NCBI GenBank assembly: GCA_018813285.1
Contig: JAHJBY010000055.1
Location: forward strand, 1-38,006
Direction of reading: 5' to 3'
From: Candidatus Omnitrophota bacterium
GTDB taxonomy: Bacteria; Omnitrophota; Gorgyraeia; Tantalellales; Tantalellaceae
Length of the DNA: 38,006 nt
Part shown: positions 32,920-37,826 of the stretch, piece after piece
How the letters are laid out: each line of letters begins with the position of its first letter
Position numbering within the stretch: the first letter of the stretch is position 1
Notes under the pieces: generated by a model
What the model was told of the DNA's origin: nothing
What the model saw: the letters and a program-made list of their open reading frames with translations, nothing else
Databases searched by the model: none
Translations under genes and position numbers: made by a program

Positions 32920-33471
32920 ATGTCGAAAAAAGCAATAGTTGTTCTGGCTGAAGGCTTCGAAGAAATAGAAGCGATCACTCCTATAGATATTTTGCGCAGA
33001 GCCGGGGTGGACGTAATAGTGGTCGGCCTGGAGGCGATCTCAATAAGGGGCGCGCACGACGTTATTGTTAATGCCGACGCGCGGTTGGATGACATCGATT
33101 TTATGCCTGATGCCATCGTTTTTCCAGGAGGGTCTCTTGGGGCAAAAAATCTTGCTCGTTCTAATAAGCTCAAAGACCTGATAATCGTTATGAACGCCGA
33201 AGGCCGCCTTATCGCGGCGATCTGCGCGGCGCCCGCGCTTCTTCTCGCGCCGCTTGGCATATTAGACGGGAAGCAGGCAACGTGTTATCCGTCTATGGAA
33301 GAAGAATTCTCCGCGTTTGTTCAACCTGTGGATGAACAAGTGGTTCAGGATGAAAACATTATAACGAGCAAGGGGCCGGGCACATCCGCCGCGTTCGCTT
33401 TAAGGATAGCCGAGGATCTTCTCGGCACGGAAAAAGCCGAAGCTGTCAGACGCGCGATGCTTCTTCCTTAA
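32920..33471 (+). CDS. DJ-1/PfpI family protein
   Basis: KKAIVVLAEGFEEIEAITPIDILRRAGVDVIVVGLE; nucleophile elbow AAICAAPALLLAPLGIL. Confidence 0.93.
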   Translation: MSKKAIVVLAEGFEEIEAITPIDILRRAGVDVIVVGLEAISIRGAHDVIVNADARLDDIDFMPDAIVFPGGSLGAKNLARSNKLKDLIIVMNAEGRLIAAICAAPALLLAPLGILDGKQATCYPSMEEEFSAFVQPVDEQVVQDENIITSKGPGTSAAFALRIAEDLLGTEKAEAVRRAMLLP

Positions 33472-34643
33472 ACCCCTCGAAAACCGATCGCCCCGTCACC
33501 GAACTTATCTTTGATCCGGTCAAGGGTCTTGTGTAACTCTTCTTTCTTTTTGGATCTATCAGTATTTCCGTCGAAAAGATCAGTTTCCCACAGAGAGTCC
33601 GACAGGTTTGAGGCGCGAACGCCGAGGAGTCGCACAGACTTCTTATGGATATCAAAATTTTCGACATGCCGAAGACAATTCTCATAGAGATCCGCGATAA
33701 AATTTGTAGGGTGATCTATTGTAACCGCTCGCGTGAATGTGCTGAAATCGCTGAACCTGATCTTCAGCGTAATGGTCTTGCATTTGAAACCGTATTTTCT
33801 TAAACGACGGGAGACTTTCTCGCTCAAGGACATAAGCGTATTTTTAATGAGATCGGCGTTCTTGGTGTCTTCCTCGAACGTATGTTCGTTACTGACCGAC
33901 CTTGTTGTGCCATCTGTTTTCACATCACGGATGTCTATCCCGTTGGCGAGTTCCCATATGTGTGATCCGTTCTTGCCGAGGAGTTCTGTAATTTTCGCCC
34001 GGTCATATGAAGCCAGGTCGCCAATGGTTCGTATTCCCACCGCGGTAAGAGCTTCTTTCGTTTTCGCGCCAACACCCCAGATCTTGCTTACCGGCATCGG
34101 ATGAAGGAAATTAAGAAGATCTTTTTCGTGTACGGTTACAAATCCGTCAGGTTTATTGAGGTCGGAGGCGATCTTTGCCGTCATTTTATTCGGCGCGAGG
34201 CCGATAGACGCCATCAACCCGGTTTCACGTTTAACGGTGTTTTTTATTTTCCGGCACATTTCGGCAGGAGTGCCGAATACGCGGTAACTGCCGGAAATAT
34301 CCATGAAAGCTTCGTCTATACTTATTGGCTCGATATCGGGCGTGAACTTCTCCAGAATGTCAAGGATCTTGTCGGATTCGCGCGCGTATTTTTGCATAGA
34401 ACCCCGCAGAAAAACGGCCTGCGGACATTTTTTATAGGCGATAGAGATCGGCATGGCGGAATGTATACCGAACGCGCGGGCTTCGTAAGAACAGGCGGCT
34501 ACGACACCTCTGCCTTTACCGCCTTTTGGGTCAGAGCCGACAATAACAGGCTTTCCGCGCAGGGCGGGGTTATCCCTTTGCTCTACGGATGTAAAGAAAG
34601 CATCCATATCAACATGGATTATATATTTTTGCGCGTGCGGCAT
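33468..34643 (-). CDS. dinB: DNA polymerase IV (Y family)
   Basis: IIHVDMDAFFTSVEQRDNPALRGKPVIVG; SYEARAFGIHSAMP; EPISIDEAFMDISGS. Confidence 0.96.
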   Translation of the reverse strand: MPHAQKYIIHVDMDAFFTSVEQRDNPALRGKPVIVGSDPKGGKGRGVVAACSYEARAFGIHSAMPISIAYKKCPQAVFLRGSMQKYARESDKILDILEKFTPDIEPISIDEAFMDISGSYRVFGTPAEMCRKIKNTVKRETGLMASIGLAPNKMTAKIASDLNKPDGFVTVHEKDLLNFLHPMPVSKIWGVGAKTKEALTAVGIRTIGDLASYDRAKITELLGKNGSHIWELANGIDIRDVKTDGTTRSVSNEHTFEEDTKNADLIKNTLMSLSEKVSRRLRKYGFKCKTITLKIRFSDFSTFTRAVTIDHPTNFIADLYENCLRHVENFDIHKKSVRLLGVRASNLSDSLWETDLFDGNTDRSKKKEELHKTLDRIKDKFGDGAIGFRGV

Positions 34644-34673: not shown

Positions 34674-34991
34674 TTACACTTTATCCGCGGCTATCGTAAG
34701 CATTATGCCGGTATCGGAACTGTTGAAATCGATCTTTTCTTCCGCGAGGAGCTTCTTAAATTTAGGTAAAAACTCTTTTTCATCTATAAAAGTCAATATA
34801 GTTTTGCAGACAGACCGGGTTTCGCCCATGATCTCTCTTAGTCCGGCAAAAATTGGCACTTTGTTTGCCAGGAATTGCTCTAACTTTTCACTTTCGATAA
34901 TAGTTGCATTGGGAGCATCCAATTCCGTAAGTATCGATAGTATGGTCTCAAAATGTTCTTCCGCGTTTAGTATTATGATTAAAAGTTTCAC
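34674..34991 (-). CDS. Small PII-like (ferredoxin-fold) protein
   Basis: MKLLIIILNAEEHFETILSILTELDAPNATIIESEKLEQF; aligns by pattern with the N-terminal domain of 36224-37042. Confidence 0.6.
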   Translation of the reverse strand: MKLLIIILNAEEHFETILSILTELDAPNATIIESEKLEQFLANKVPIFAGLREIMGETRSVCKTILTFIDEKEFLPKFKKLLAEEKIDFNSSDTGIMLTIAADKV

Positions 34992-35005
34992 AACTTCCTC
35001 CGTTG

Positions 35006-36205
35006 TTATCGTTTCAGTTTACCTATCTCGCCGGCTTTAGATATGGCGAATTTTGTTGCCATAGGCCCTATAATCTCGAATACTATAGTTGTCGCCGCTA
35101 TGGTGTTTATGACGACCACTGCCATCTGTTGTCCTTCCGGACCTAACACACTGAATTCTCTGGTTGCCAGGATAGCAAGTCCGATCGCTACTCCGGCTTG
35201 TGAAAGAATACCGAGACCCAGATACTTTCGAATTATGGGATCGGATCTTGATATAGTCGCTCCCAGATAGGATCCTCCCATAAGGCCGAGCGTTCTGCAG
35301 AATATATAGATCAAACCTAATACCCCCATGGCAGGCAGGAGGCTGATCTGGAGGTGCGCACCTGCTGTCACGAAAAATATAATGTAGATCGGCAGTGCGA
35401 CACCTTGCAACGCCTGATAGGTTCTACGGTTCGCCAGAAAGAAAAAGTTCGCGAATACCATCCCTAAAGCCAAATTAGATAGTATAAGCGAAAAATTTAA
35501 ATATCTTGCCAAACCTGAACATATCAGTATTCCGCCTAATGCTACGGCTAAGATCTCACTTCTATTATACAGTTTGCGTATGAAATATCCAAGGATAACA
35601 CCCATGATGCCGCCTGTTATGATAGCCCCGAAGATCTCAAAAAGAGGTTTTCCCAAAACAGCCATGAAGGACATGGGTTCTTTTATCATTAACATTTTGG
35701 CGAGAACAGCGGCGAACGCGTATATTATGATGGCTAACCCATCATCCAATCCAACCACCGCGTATAGAGCATTAGTGAGAGGCCCTTTGGCTTTATATTC
35801 CTGCAATACTATGGCTGTTCCCGCCGGAGCGGAGGCCGGCGCCATCGCTCCGAATATAAGGGCCCAGTGCAGTTTGTGCGTTAAAAAATAAACCCCGAAA
35901 GCTACACAGAAGAATGCTCCGAATGATTCCGAAAAAATTATAGCGGCAAGGCCTTTCCCCATTTTTCTAAGTACGCTCATCCGCATTTCACTTCCAATAA
36001 TGAAAGCCACGATACCCAGAGCCACATCATTTAAAATGCCGATCAAGTCAAGGCATTTTGCGTCAAGAATATTTAGAAAAGACGGCCCTAAAAGAACCCC
36101 GGCAAAGAGGTAGCCTACGACGGCCGGTAGTTTGAACCTATTGCTGAACCTTCCGCCTATAAATCCTAAGATGATCGTTATGCCTATGAGAACCAGGATA
36201 CTCAT
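35006..36205 (-). CDS. Cation:proton antiporter (CPA2/KefB-type membrane domain)
   Basis: About 12 TM; KLPAVVGYLFAGVLLGPSFL; APASAPAGTAIVLQEY; VGLDDGLAIIIYA. Confidence 0.88.
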   Translation of the reverse strand: MSILVLIGITIILGFIGGRFSNRFKLPAVVGYLFAGVLLGPSFLNILDAKCLDLIGILNDVALGIVAFIIGSEMRMSVLRKMGKGLAAIIFSESFGAFFCVAFGVYFLTHKLHWALIFGAMAPASAPAGTAIVLQEYKAKGPLTNALYAVVGLDDGLAIIIYAFAAVLAKMLMIKEPMSFMAVLGKPLFEIFGAIITGGIMGVILGYFIRKLYNRSEILAVALGGILICSGLARYLNFSLILSNLALGMVFANFFFLANRRTYQALQGVALPIYIIFFVTAGAHLQISLLPAMGVLGLIYIFCRTLGLMGGSYLGATISRSDPIIRKYLGLGILSQAGVAIGLAILATREFSVLGPEGQQMAVVVINTIAATTIVFEIIGPMATKFAISKAGEIGKLKR

Positions 36206-36223
36206 ATGAAAAACCCGTTTTGC

Positions 36224-37042
36224 CTACTCGTCAGATCTTGTTAATTCCGCCAAAATTTCTTCAGGGTCTTGAGCGGCAAGCAATGATTCCCTGAATTCTG
36301 GTCTTTTTAACAACCTGCTCAACTGGGCAAGTATTTTAAGGTAATCGGTTAAACCCTCTTTTTTAGGAGTCCCCATCAGGAAGATCAGTTTTACAGGTGT
36401 TTTATCGACAGATCCAAAATCTATACCGGCCTGTGACCTGCCAAAGGCAAGAATAAAATCTTCTGTAGCGTTTGTTCTTGCGTGCGGTATAGCGACTCCA
36501 TGACCGATGCCGGTTGTTTGAAGATTTTCTCTCGCAAAAACATCCAGGAGGAACTGATCAAAATTAGTTATGGCAGGGGATTTCCTTAAAAGTTCCGCCA
36601 TCTCCTTGATCGCATCCTCTTTTGTCCGCGAGTTAAGATCAAGCAACATCTGATCTTTTGTGACATATTTTTTCAGTTTCATTTTTGTTTCTCCTTTCTC
36701 CATATTGAGGAGATTTTTATTTAGGCCCTCAAATCTTTTCCAAGGCACTGTGCATATAAAACCGGAATCGGCAAAATTAAGCCAGCGCAAAGATGGGTGA
36801 TCATCCATCAACCGCTTAATGCGTATAATTTTGCCTTCGTCATTTGTAATAGCCAAAAGCGCTTTATCGTAATTTTTCAGTATTTTTTTATTTTTAGAAC
36901 GCGGAGCATACTGTTCGCCAGGCATAAAACACCCAAGTTTCTCACGATTGATAAAACTGGTTTCCACTATACGCTCTTTTTTGATCAAGCCATGAAGCGT
37001 CATAAGATAATCCTGGCTGTTATGCAGTATGATAAGTAACAT
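36224..37042 (-). CDS. PII-like domain fused to PTS fructose/nitrogen-type EIIA domain
   Basis: EIIA active site TTGIGHGVAIPHARTNATEDF; N-terminal ~105 aa PII-like; internal ATG at 36682 preceded by AAAGGAG. Confidence 0.82.
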   Translation of the reverse strand: MLLIILHNSQDYLMTLHGLIKKERIVETSFINREKLGCFMPGEQYAPRSKNKKILKNYDKALLAITNDEGKIIRIKRLMDDHPSLRWLNFADSGFICTVPWKRFEGLNKNLLNMEKGETKMKLKKYVTKDQMLLDLNSRTKEDAIKEMAELLRKSPAITNFDQFLLDVFARENLQTTGIGHGVAIPHARTNATEDFILAFGRSQAGIDFGSVDKTPVKLIFLMGTPKKEGLTDYLKILAQLSRLLKRPEFRESLLAAQDPEEILAELTRSDE

Positions 37043-37059
37043 ATCGCTCCCGGATATTG

Positions 37060-37752
37060 TTAAGCATTTATGCGTTCCTGTTTCAGGAGGATGCGCATAA
37101 TATCGTTCTTGGAAATAGCCTTCATAAAGTTTTCAAAAATACTATCTACGTTAAGCAAGACGGCTATTTTTGATAGAAGCTTGAGATGTAAAACTACGTC
37201 CGGCGCGCATGTCATAAAGAATAAGTGAACTTTTTTCCCGTCCGGTGCCGAAAAATCCACCCCTTTCATTGTTCGTCCGATTATGATACCCGGTTTTTGA
37301 AATAACTCATCGTTTGGATTCCTGGGGTGGGGGATAGCTATGCCGTTCCCGATGGCGGTACTAAGCATTTCTTCACGTTTTTTTAGTTGATTTATCAATT
37401 CGTCAGAAGAAACGGCTATTTTCGATTTTTTCGCGGTTTCCACCAGCTCAACGAGTACATCATCTTTGGTCTCGGATAGCATGTGCAAATTTATACAATC
37501 TGGATGCACCAGCCTGGATAGAGGCAGAATGTCCGGGGATTTGAGAAATTTTCCAAAATCGTACTTTGAGAACTTAATGATCTTATCCTGCATATATTCA
37601 TCTATGGAGGATAAGTAGAAGCGCCACTGGTTAGCTATCTTTACAGCGGGGATCTCCCCCGATTGAGCCATTTTTAAAACTGTTTTTTCATTCAATTTTA
37701 AATAAGTAGCAACTTCTTTTGTAGTAAGGACATTGTTTAGGGGCATACTCAT
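37060..37752 (-). CDS. Excisionase/MerR-type HTH fused to PTS EIIA domain
   Basis: LTTKEVATYLKLNEKTVLKMAQSGEIPAVKIANQWRF; EIIA motif IGNGIAIPHPRNPNDELF. Confidence 0.88.
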   Translation of the reverse strand: MSMPLNNVLTTKEVATYLKLNEKTVLKMAQSGEIPAVKIANQWRFYLSSIDEYMQDKIIKFSKYDFGKFLKSPDILPLSRLVHPDCINLHMLSETKDDVLVELVETAKKSKIAVSSDELINQLKKREEMLSTAIGNGIAIPHPRNPNDELFQKPGIIIGRTMKGVDFSAPDGKKVHLFFMTCAPDVVLHLKLLSKIAVLLNVDSIFENFMKAISKNDIMRILLKQERINA

Positions 37753-37763
37753 TCCTTAATATT

Positions 37764-37793
37764 AACTCAAACTAACCCAAACTAACTTATTTA
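37764..37793 (-). promoter_or_regulatory. Candidate operator: 10-bp-period direct repeats
   Basis: + strand AACTCAAACT / AACCCAAACT / AACTTATTTA (third degenerate) between -10 and start codon of the HTH-EIIA gene. Confidence 0.45.
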
Positions 37794-37797
37794 CGCT

Positions 37798-37826
37798 ATT
37801 ATCCCCACATCTTCTGATCTTGTCAA
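37798..37826 (-). promoter_or_regulatory. Near-consensus sigma70 promoter for the HTH-EIIA operon
   Basis: Reverse strand TTGACA (37826-37821), 17-nt spacer, GATAAT (37803-37798). Confidence 0.75.

Follow-up and report, generated by a model that had tools for sequence, protein, structure and literature searches.

Does a cation antiporter that is encoded between two PTS EIIA genes and a gene for a small PII-like protein take its regulation from those neighbors? An earlier note on this DNA had proposed that four closely spaced genes on one strand couple a phosphorylation state and a small-molecule signal to antiporter activity. The window, meaning the whole 38,006-nucleotide stretch analyzed, is the entire contig C146 of an Omnitrophota genome (1.76 Mb, 96.7% complete). 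In the reading that we consider likely, the phosphorylation state of EIIA and the ligand state of the PII-like protein gate the antiporter, and the HTH-EIIA protein autoregulates the operon. All four open reading frames are present on the minus strand, with intergenic gaps of 17, 18, and 14 bp in operon order. From 5' to 3', they encode an HTH_17-EIIA protein, an N-domain-EIIA fusion, the antiporter, and a free 105-aa PII-like protein. The features and the evidence for each are as follows.

37798..37826, minus strand: sigma-70-type promoter TTGACA-17-GATAAT ahead of the operon (consensus match, relatives)
37758..37787, minus strand: proposed operator, three tandem 10-bp direct repeats (five genomes, pattern search)
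37060..37752, minus strand: HTH_17 plus PTS EIIA protein, proposed autoregulator (Pfam, phospho-His kept)
36224..37042, minus strand: putative PII-like N-domain and PTS EIIA in frame (Pfam, same fusion in locus L035, AF2)
36224..36682, minus strand: probable free EIIA from an internal ATG (AAAGGAG ahead, starts of stand-alone EIIAs in G016 and G017)
35006..36205, minus strand: cation/proton antiporter (Na_H_Exchanger), 399 aa (Pfam, tree, DD motif)
34674..34991, minus strand: free PII-like protein, GTG start (motif, Pfam on relatives, hhalign, AF2, Foldseek)

A dinB gene (DNA polymerase IV family, 33468-34643) follows on the same strand, 30 bp downstream of the PII-like gene. Because it is absent from that position in the relatives read, it probably lies outside the module.

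When 85,462 species genomes were searched with the PII-like family, 50 loci emerged, all from metagenome assemblies and together covering about a dozen phyla. They come from Omnitrophota, Clostridia, Latescibacterota, Aerophobetes, Sumerlaeota, Aminicenantes, Caldisericota, WOR-3, KSB1, Planctomycetota, Acidobacteria, Gemmatimonadaceae, and Deltaproteobacteria. A same-strand antiporter gene lies within 1 kb of the PII-like gene at 43 of the 50 loci, a same-strand EIIA gene lies within 3 kb at 40, and both are found at 36. The stretch examined holds no EIIA at 10 loci, and several of the loci missing a partner lie near a contig end or are cut by one. With just four EIIA domains spread over the 1.76 Mb of the window's own genome, the chance of one lying within 3 kb of any given locus would be roughly one percent. 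Some of the 50 loci come from close relatives and are not independent, but the linkage still spans many phyla, and the genes flanking the module vary from locus to locus among those read. The earlier note had named a neighborhood not conserved in relatives as the outcome that would speak against its proposal; the neighborhood is kept across about a dozen phyla.

Both EIIA domains are well defined by Pfam. The HTH-EIIA protein (37752-37060) matches HTH_17 (9e-15) and PTS_EIIA_2 (1.4e-31), and residues 126-268 of the fusion protein (37042-36224) match PTS_EIIA_2 (3.5e-36). Against PF00359, the two domains score 125 and 110 bits. The active-site IPH motif that had been read in both is there, including the phosphorylatable His, which is kept in all 45 EIIAs inspected in and around module loci. 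Neither domain passes the PtsN equivalog model TIGR01419 (68.8 and 62.7 bits versus a cut-off of 138.7). The second EIIA exceeds the cut-off of the fructose-IIA model TIGR00848 (110.6 versus 103.5 bits), as it might if the EIIAs served a sugar PTS whose EIIB and EIIC lie elsewhere in the genome. However, PF02378 EIIC and PF02302 EIIB, the two permease families covered by the search, are both absent from the 96.7%-complete genome. As far as these two families go, the sugar-PTS explanation, which the earlier note had also listed as a way to overturn its proposal, is thus largely refuted, and we regard it as hardly tenable.

Phosphate for the EIIAs could come from the host. The window lacks EI, HPr, EIIB, and EIIC, as had been noted, and the genome's HPr and EI lie on other contigs, with contig C69 carrying a ptsN-like gene, yvcK, HPr, and EI together. 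EI is encoded in 48 of 52 module genomes. As a co-occurrence test this count is uninformative, because 141 of 147 relatives also have EI; it shows only that phosphate can be supplied. Two further PTS-related genes were seen in this genome. Contig C117 (L034:4813-6657) encodes a 614-aa APC-like permease with a C-terminal EIIA, another link between an EIIA and a transporter, and a very long open frame of 2971 codons on contig C94 (L019) contains a second HPr-like domain (41 bits).

The second gene had been described as a PII-like-EIIA fusion, and this description stands for its EIIA half more firmly than for its N-terminal half. Residues 1-119 have no Pfam match at cut-off and lack the PIFAGL signature that marks the free PII-like protein. 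Against a relative of that protein they score E = 2e-5, and the AF2 model (pLDDT 76) matches SbtB in Foldseek with E ~7e-3. Sequence and model together point, with moderate confidence, to a degenerate, weak PII-like paralogue. The fusion has so far been found only in the window and in L035, and the two N-domains are 38-39% identical. The gene likely yields two products, one of them a free EIIA starting at an internal ATG (residue 121), because this ATG is preceded by a ribosome-binding site and coincides with the start of the free EIIA in two other genomes. The ribosome-binding site is AAAGGAG in the window and GAGAGGAG in L035, and the stand-alone EIIAs of G016 and G017 begin at the position corresponding to M121 of the fusion. 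In G016, a broken second EIIA and antiporter remnants also lie upstream of the intact module (L022:7453-8777), resembling a decaying duplicate.

The antiporter matches PF00999 Na_H_Exchanger (7.6e-28, 97.9 bits) and carries the Asp-Asp pair D154-D155, equivalent to the TM5 acidic pair of CPA antiporters. This pair is present in all CBS-type sister antiporters and in most module antiporters. The CPA2 label given to the protein earlier is uncertain, since the CPA2 model TIGR00932 scores 46.2 bits, far below its cut-off of 238.3; the family is Na_H_Exchanger. The Aminicenantes-type modules have antiporter genes in tandem pairs (L055, L060, L064, L065, L071, L073, L075, L077, L079, and L082). The first member of such a pair lacks the TM5 acidic pair (having, e.g., TS, SG, GG, or NG), and the second mostly has Lys-Asp. 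These sequences suggest that a pseudo-antiporter and a catalytic subunit form a heteromer.

The window antiporter consists of the 399-aa membrane domain only, without a cytoplasmic regulatory domain. Its nearest relatives outside modules are either ~550 aa long with a C-terminal CBS pair or ~395 aa long and encoded directly behind a 158-aa CBS-pair gene. The CBS pair was confirmed by Pfam in the copy from the window's own genome (contig C125, L144) and was seen by eye in five other sequences. The Omnitrophota CBS-pair antiporters, this copy included, belong to the same family as the window protein and are 34-41% identical to it. Where the window has EIIA and PII-like proteins, they have a CBS pair, either fused or in an adjacent protein. 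In the antiporter tree, the CBS-linked groups stand apart from most EIIA/PII-linked antiporters, a clustering that is descriptive because the rows were picked partly by genomic context. One module (L048) contains a CBS-EIIA fusion. Around one transporter family, regulatory modules thus stand in for one another, and this replacement argues for the antiporter as the target of the EIIA and PII-like proteins.

A precedent for such action is found in E. coli, where unphosphorylated PtsN (EIIA-Ntr) binds and inhibits the K+/H+ antiporter YcgO (PMC11808508). In both cases a fructose/Ntr-class EIIA is linked to a CPA-type cation/proton antiporter, and phosphorylation-dependent control would be expected. 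YcgO, however, has its own RCK and CorC domains, which are the target of PtsN and which the window antiporter lacks. The window EIIA, moreover, is encoded in the operon, falls below the PtsN equivalog cut-off, and has a PII-like partner. By analogy with this system, and with the CBS-fused and CBS-adjacent paralogues in mind, the proposal that the antiporter is controlled by the EIIA and PII-like proteins has gained support. The EIIAs might instead act on other targets, in a global PTS-Ntr role or on TrkA/KdpD-like partners, with the antiporter merely a co-transcribed ion-homeostasis gene. Several targets are known for E. coli PtsN (PMC13104625), and the genome encodes further EIIAs, on C69 and fused to the APC-type permease. 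Yet the EIIA of the module is a copy of its own, retained next to divergent antiporters across phyla, and the general ptsN gene lies elsewhere with yvcK, HPr, and EI. We therefore find action on other targets quite improbable and retain the antiporter as the favored target.

The free 105-aa protein has no Pfam match by itself, and PDB sequence searches with it returned chance matches only, so that fold comparison was needed. The description of this protein as PII-like nevertheless holds well. Pfam P-II (PF00543) is matched by 27 of 48 relatives (best 2.1e-9), and hhalign of the family against canonical PII gives E = 3.8e-4, but with a probability of 36%. The AF2 model (pLDDT 89.2, pTM 0.78) is predicted to have the beta-alpha-beta/beta-alpha-beta, ferredoxin-like fold of the PII superfamily. 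Its top 50 Foldseek matches are all PII, GlnK, or PII-like proteins, with a TM to target of up to 0.71; the best PDB matches are Thermus TT1020, PotN, and GlnK. Sequence and model identify it as a divergent PII-superfamily member distinct from GlnB/GlnK, and a separate canonical PII is encoded on contig C91 of the same genome. The family signature is PIFAGLR, at residues 46-52, and P46-I-F-A-G-L51 is invariant in the alignment of a tight family of 48 relatives. We found no description of this subfamily in the open-licence literature searched.

In the alignment of this family with canonical PII proteins, both the uridylylated tyrosine of the T-loop YRG(A/S)EY and the C-terminal nucleotide signature GDGKIF(V)...RIRTGE are absent. 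Nucleotide binding is, therefore, not predicted from sequence. PII proteins typically form homotrimers that bind an adenine nucleotide or 2-oxoglutarate. A diadenylate cyclase is encoded in 51 of 52 module genomes and also in 11 of 14 control genomes; c-di-AMP is a possible ligand. The missing nucleotide-binding residues and the invariant PIFAGL would also fit a fixed protein contact. The PII-like protein would then belong constitutively to the antiporter as a structural subunit, or act as its assembly factor, instead of sensing a ligand, and only EIIA would signal. Its gene directly abuts the antiporter gene at many loci (gap below 60 bp at 37 of 50), in keeping with such a role. However, in Aminicenantes, Latescibacterota, and WOR-3 it often abuts or overlaps the EIIA gene (gap below 60 bp at 21 of 50 loci overall), and ligand binding does not require the complete canonical signature in PII-like proteins such as SbtB. 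A purely structural role is unlikely in our estimation, and we favor a ligand-sensing one.

The promoter region bears on the role of the HTH-EIIA protein, which had been proposed to control expression. Because of the ribosome-binding-site spacing, translation more likely starts at the second ATG (37746) than at 37752. The promoter TTGACA-17-GATAAT matches 11 of 12 consensus positions, and TTGACA boxes occur at the same place in four relatives. Just downstream of the -10 box lie three tandem repeats, AGTTAGTTTG GGTTAGTTTG AGTTAATATT. The HTH-EIIA genes of five genomes share this arrangement, with a TTGACA box followed by 3-4 tandem 10-bp repeats just past the -10 region (family consensus RGTTARNNTR). 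A two-repeat pattern derived from these five promoters was scanned over 17 genomes (~31 Mb), and matched the five source promoters, two arrays in genome G010, and one site in G147. A reversed-pattern control gave zero matches in the same scan. The window's array is the sole occurrence in its own genome. Both G010 arrays directly precede HTH-EIIA genes that were not used to derive the pattern, and the prediction thus succeeded. The arrays therefore stand in front of seven HTH-EIIA genes, with just one further place in ~31 Mb, which adds evidence for control of expression by this protein. That other place (G147 C14:21109) has two repeats only, with no HTH-EIIA gene behind it, and is probably a chance match.

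The G010 genes lie at L170:1851-4834 and L171:4252-6023. One heads an operon, behind the same array, with EIIA-CBS and a CitMHS/ArsB-type transporter unrelated to the antiporter; the other is near a broken Na_H_Exchanger gene. Among the module loci seen, HTH-EIIA is confined to some Omnitrophota. Autoregulation through the array is the natural reading of these sequences. Repression, as opposed to activation, is a guess from the position of the array relative to the promoter. A parallel is BldC, a MerR-like HTH protein whose copies bind head to tail on 9-bp direct repeats (PMC5859096). The two systems have in common an HTH of the MerR-like/excisionase type and a promoter with direct repeats in tandem. 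The window HTH differs in being fused to EIIA and in its 10-bp repeat period; a BldC-like action is suggested by the repeats, and the protein falls far below the cut-off of the BldC family model NF033787 (20.1 bits versus 77).

Our studies allow a mechanism to be proposed. Its direct basis is the gene content, the linkage, the predicted PII fold, the conserved phospho-His, a genome that encodes EI and HPr, and the array of repeats; from these we infer the physical interaction, the ligand, the sign of control, the transported ion, and repression over activation. In place of a regulatory domain of its own, the antiporter would receive two regulatory inputs in trans. Phosphorylation of the EIIAs by host EI and HPr would follow the PEP/energy state. 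EIIA, in its unphosphorylated (or phosphorylated) form, would dock on the short antiporter and change its activity, as PtsN does on YcgO. The small ligand bound by the PII-like protein would most likely be an adenine nucleotide or c-di-AMP, and the protein's PIFAGLR loop would serve to gate that same antiporter, much as GlnK and SbtB do with their own transporters. Both of these controls would be post-translational. Binding of HTH-EIIA to the 10-bp repeat array past the promoter, in a BldC-like manner, would repress the operon, and phosphorylation of HTH-EIIA itself would be the switch.

PII proteins are known to lock transporters in the SbtB-SbtA and GlnK-AmtB pairs (PMC10710835), where, as here, a small PII-fold protein is encoded beside a transporter. 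Where such proteins usually have their T-loop sequence, the window protein has PIFAGL, its proposed target is a Na_H_Exchanger-family antiporter, and an EIIA is also present. CPA antiporters are dimers. This counts against the favored mechanism, because transporter gating by PII seems restricted to transporters that work as trimers, according to a review (PMC10710835). Also against it are the 10 loci with no EIIA in the stretch examined, the missing nucleotide signature, and the confinement of HTH-EIIA to some Omnitrophota. In its fullest form, the proposal is that the PII-like protein and EIIA jointly gate a dimer-family antiporter, that HTH-EIIA is a phospho-switched repressor on the 10-bp repeats, and that the cassette is interchangeable with CBS pairs. 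We advance this form tentatively, as a possibility that falls somewhat short of even.

The components are of known kinds, and each step has a precedent in PtsN-YcgO, SbtB-SbtA, or BldC. No description of the combination of EIIA, PII, and antiporter was found in the open-licence literature. The conserved linkage suggests that one ion pump is placed jointly under a phosphate relay and a small-molecule sensor. If this is true, the remark that PII control is confined to trimeric transporters (PMC10710835) would be challenged, and the unnamed PII subfamily marked by the PIFAGL motif would gain a function. The module would also offer a simple test system for the action of EIIA on antiporters. The PTS and PII, the two great metabolic relays of bacteria, would then meet at a single ion transporter, and would do so in phyla with almost no cultured members.
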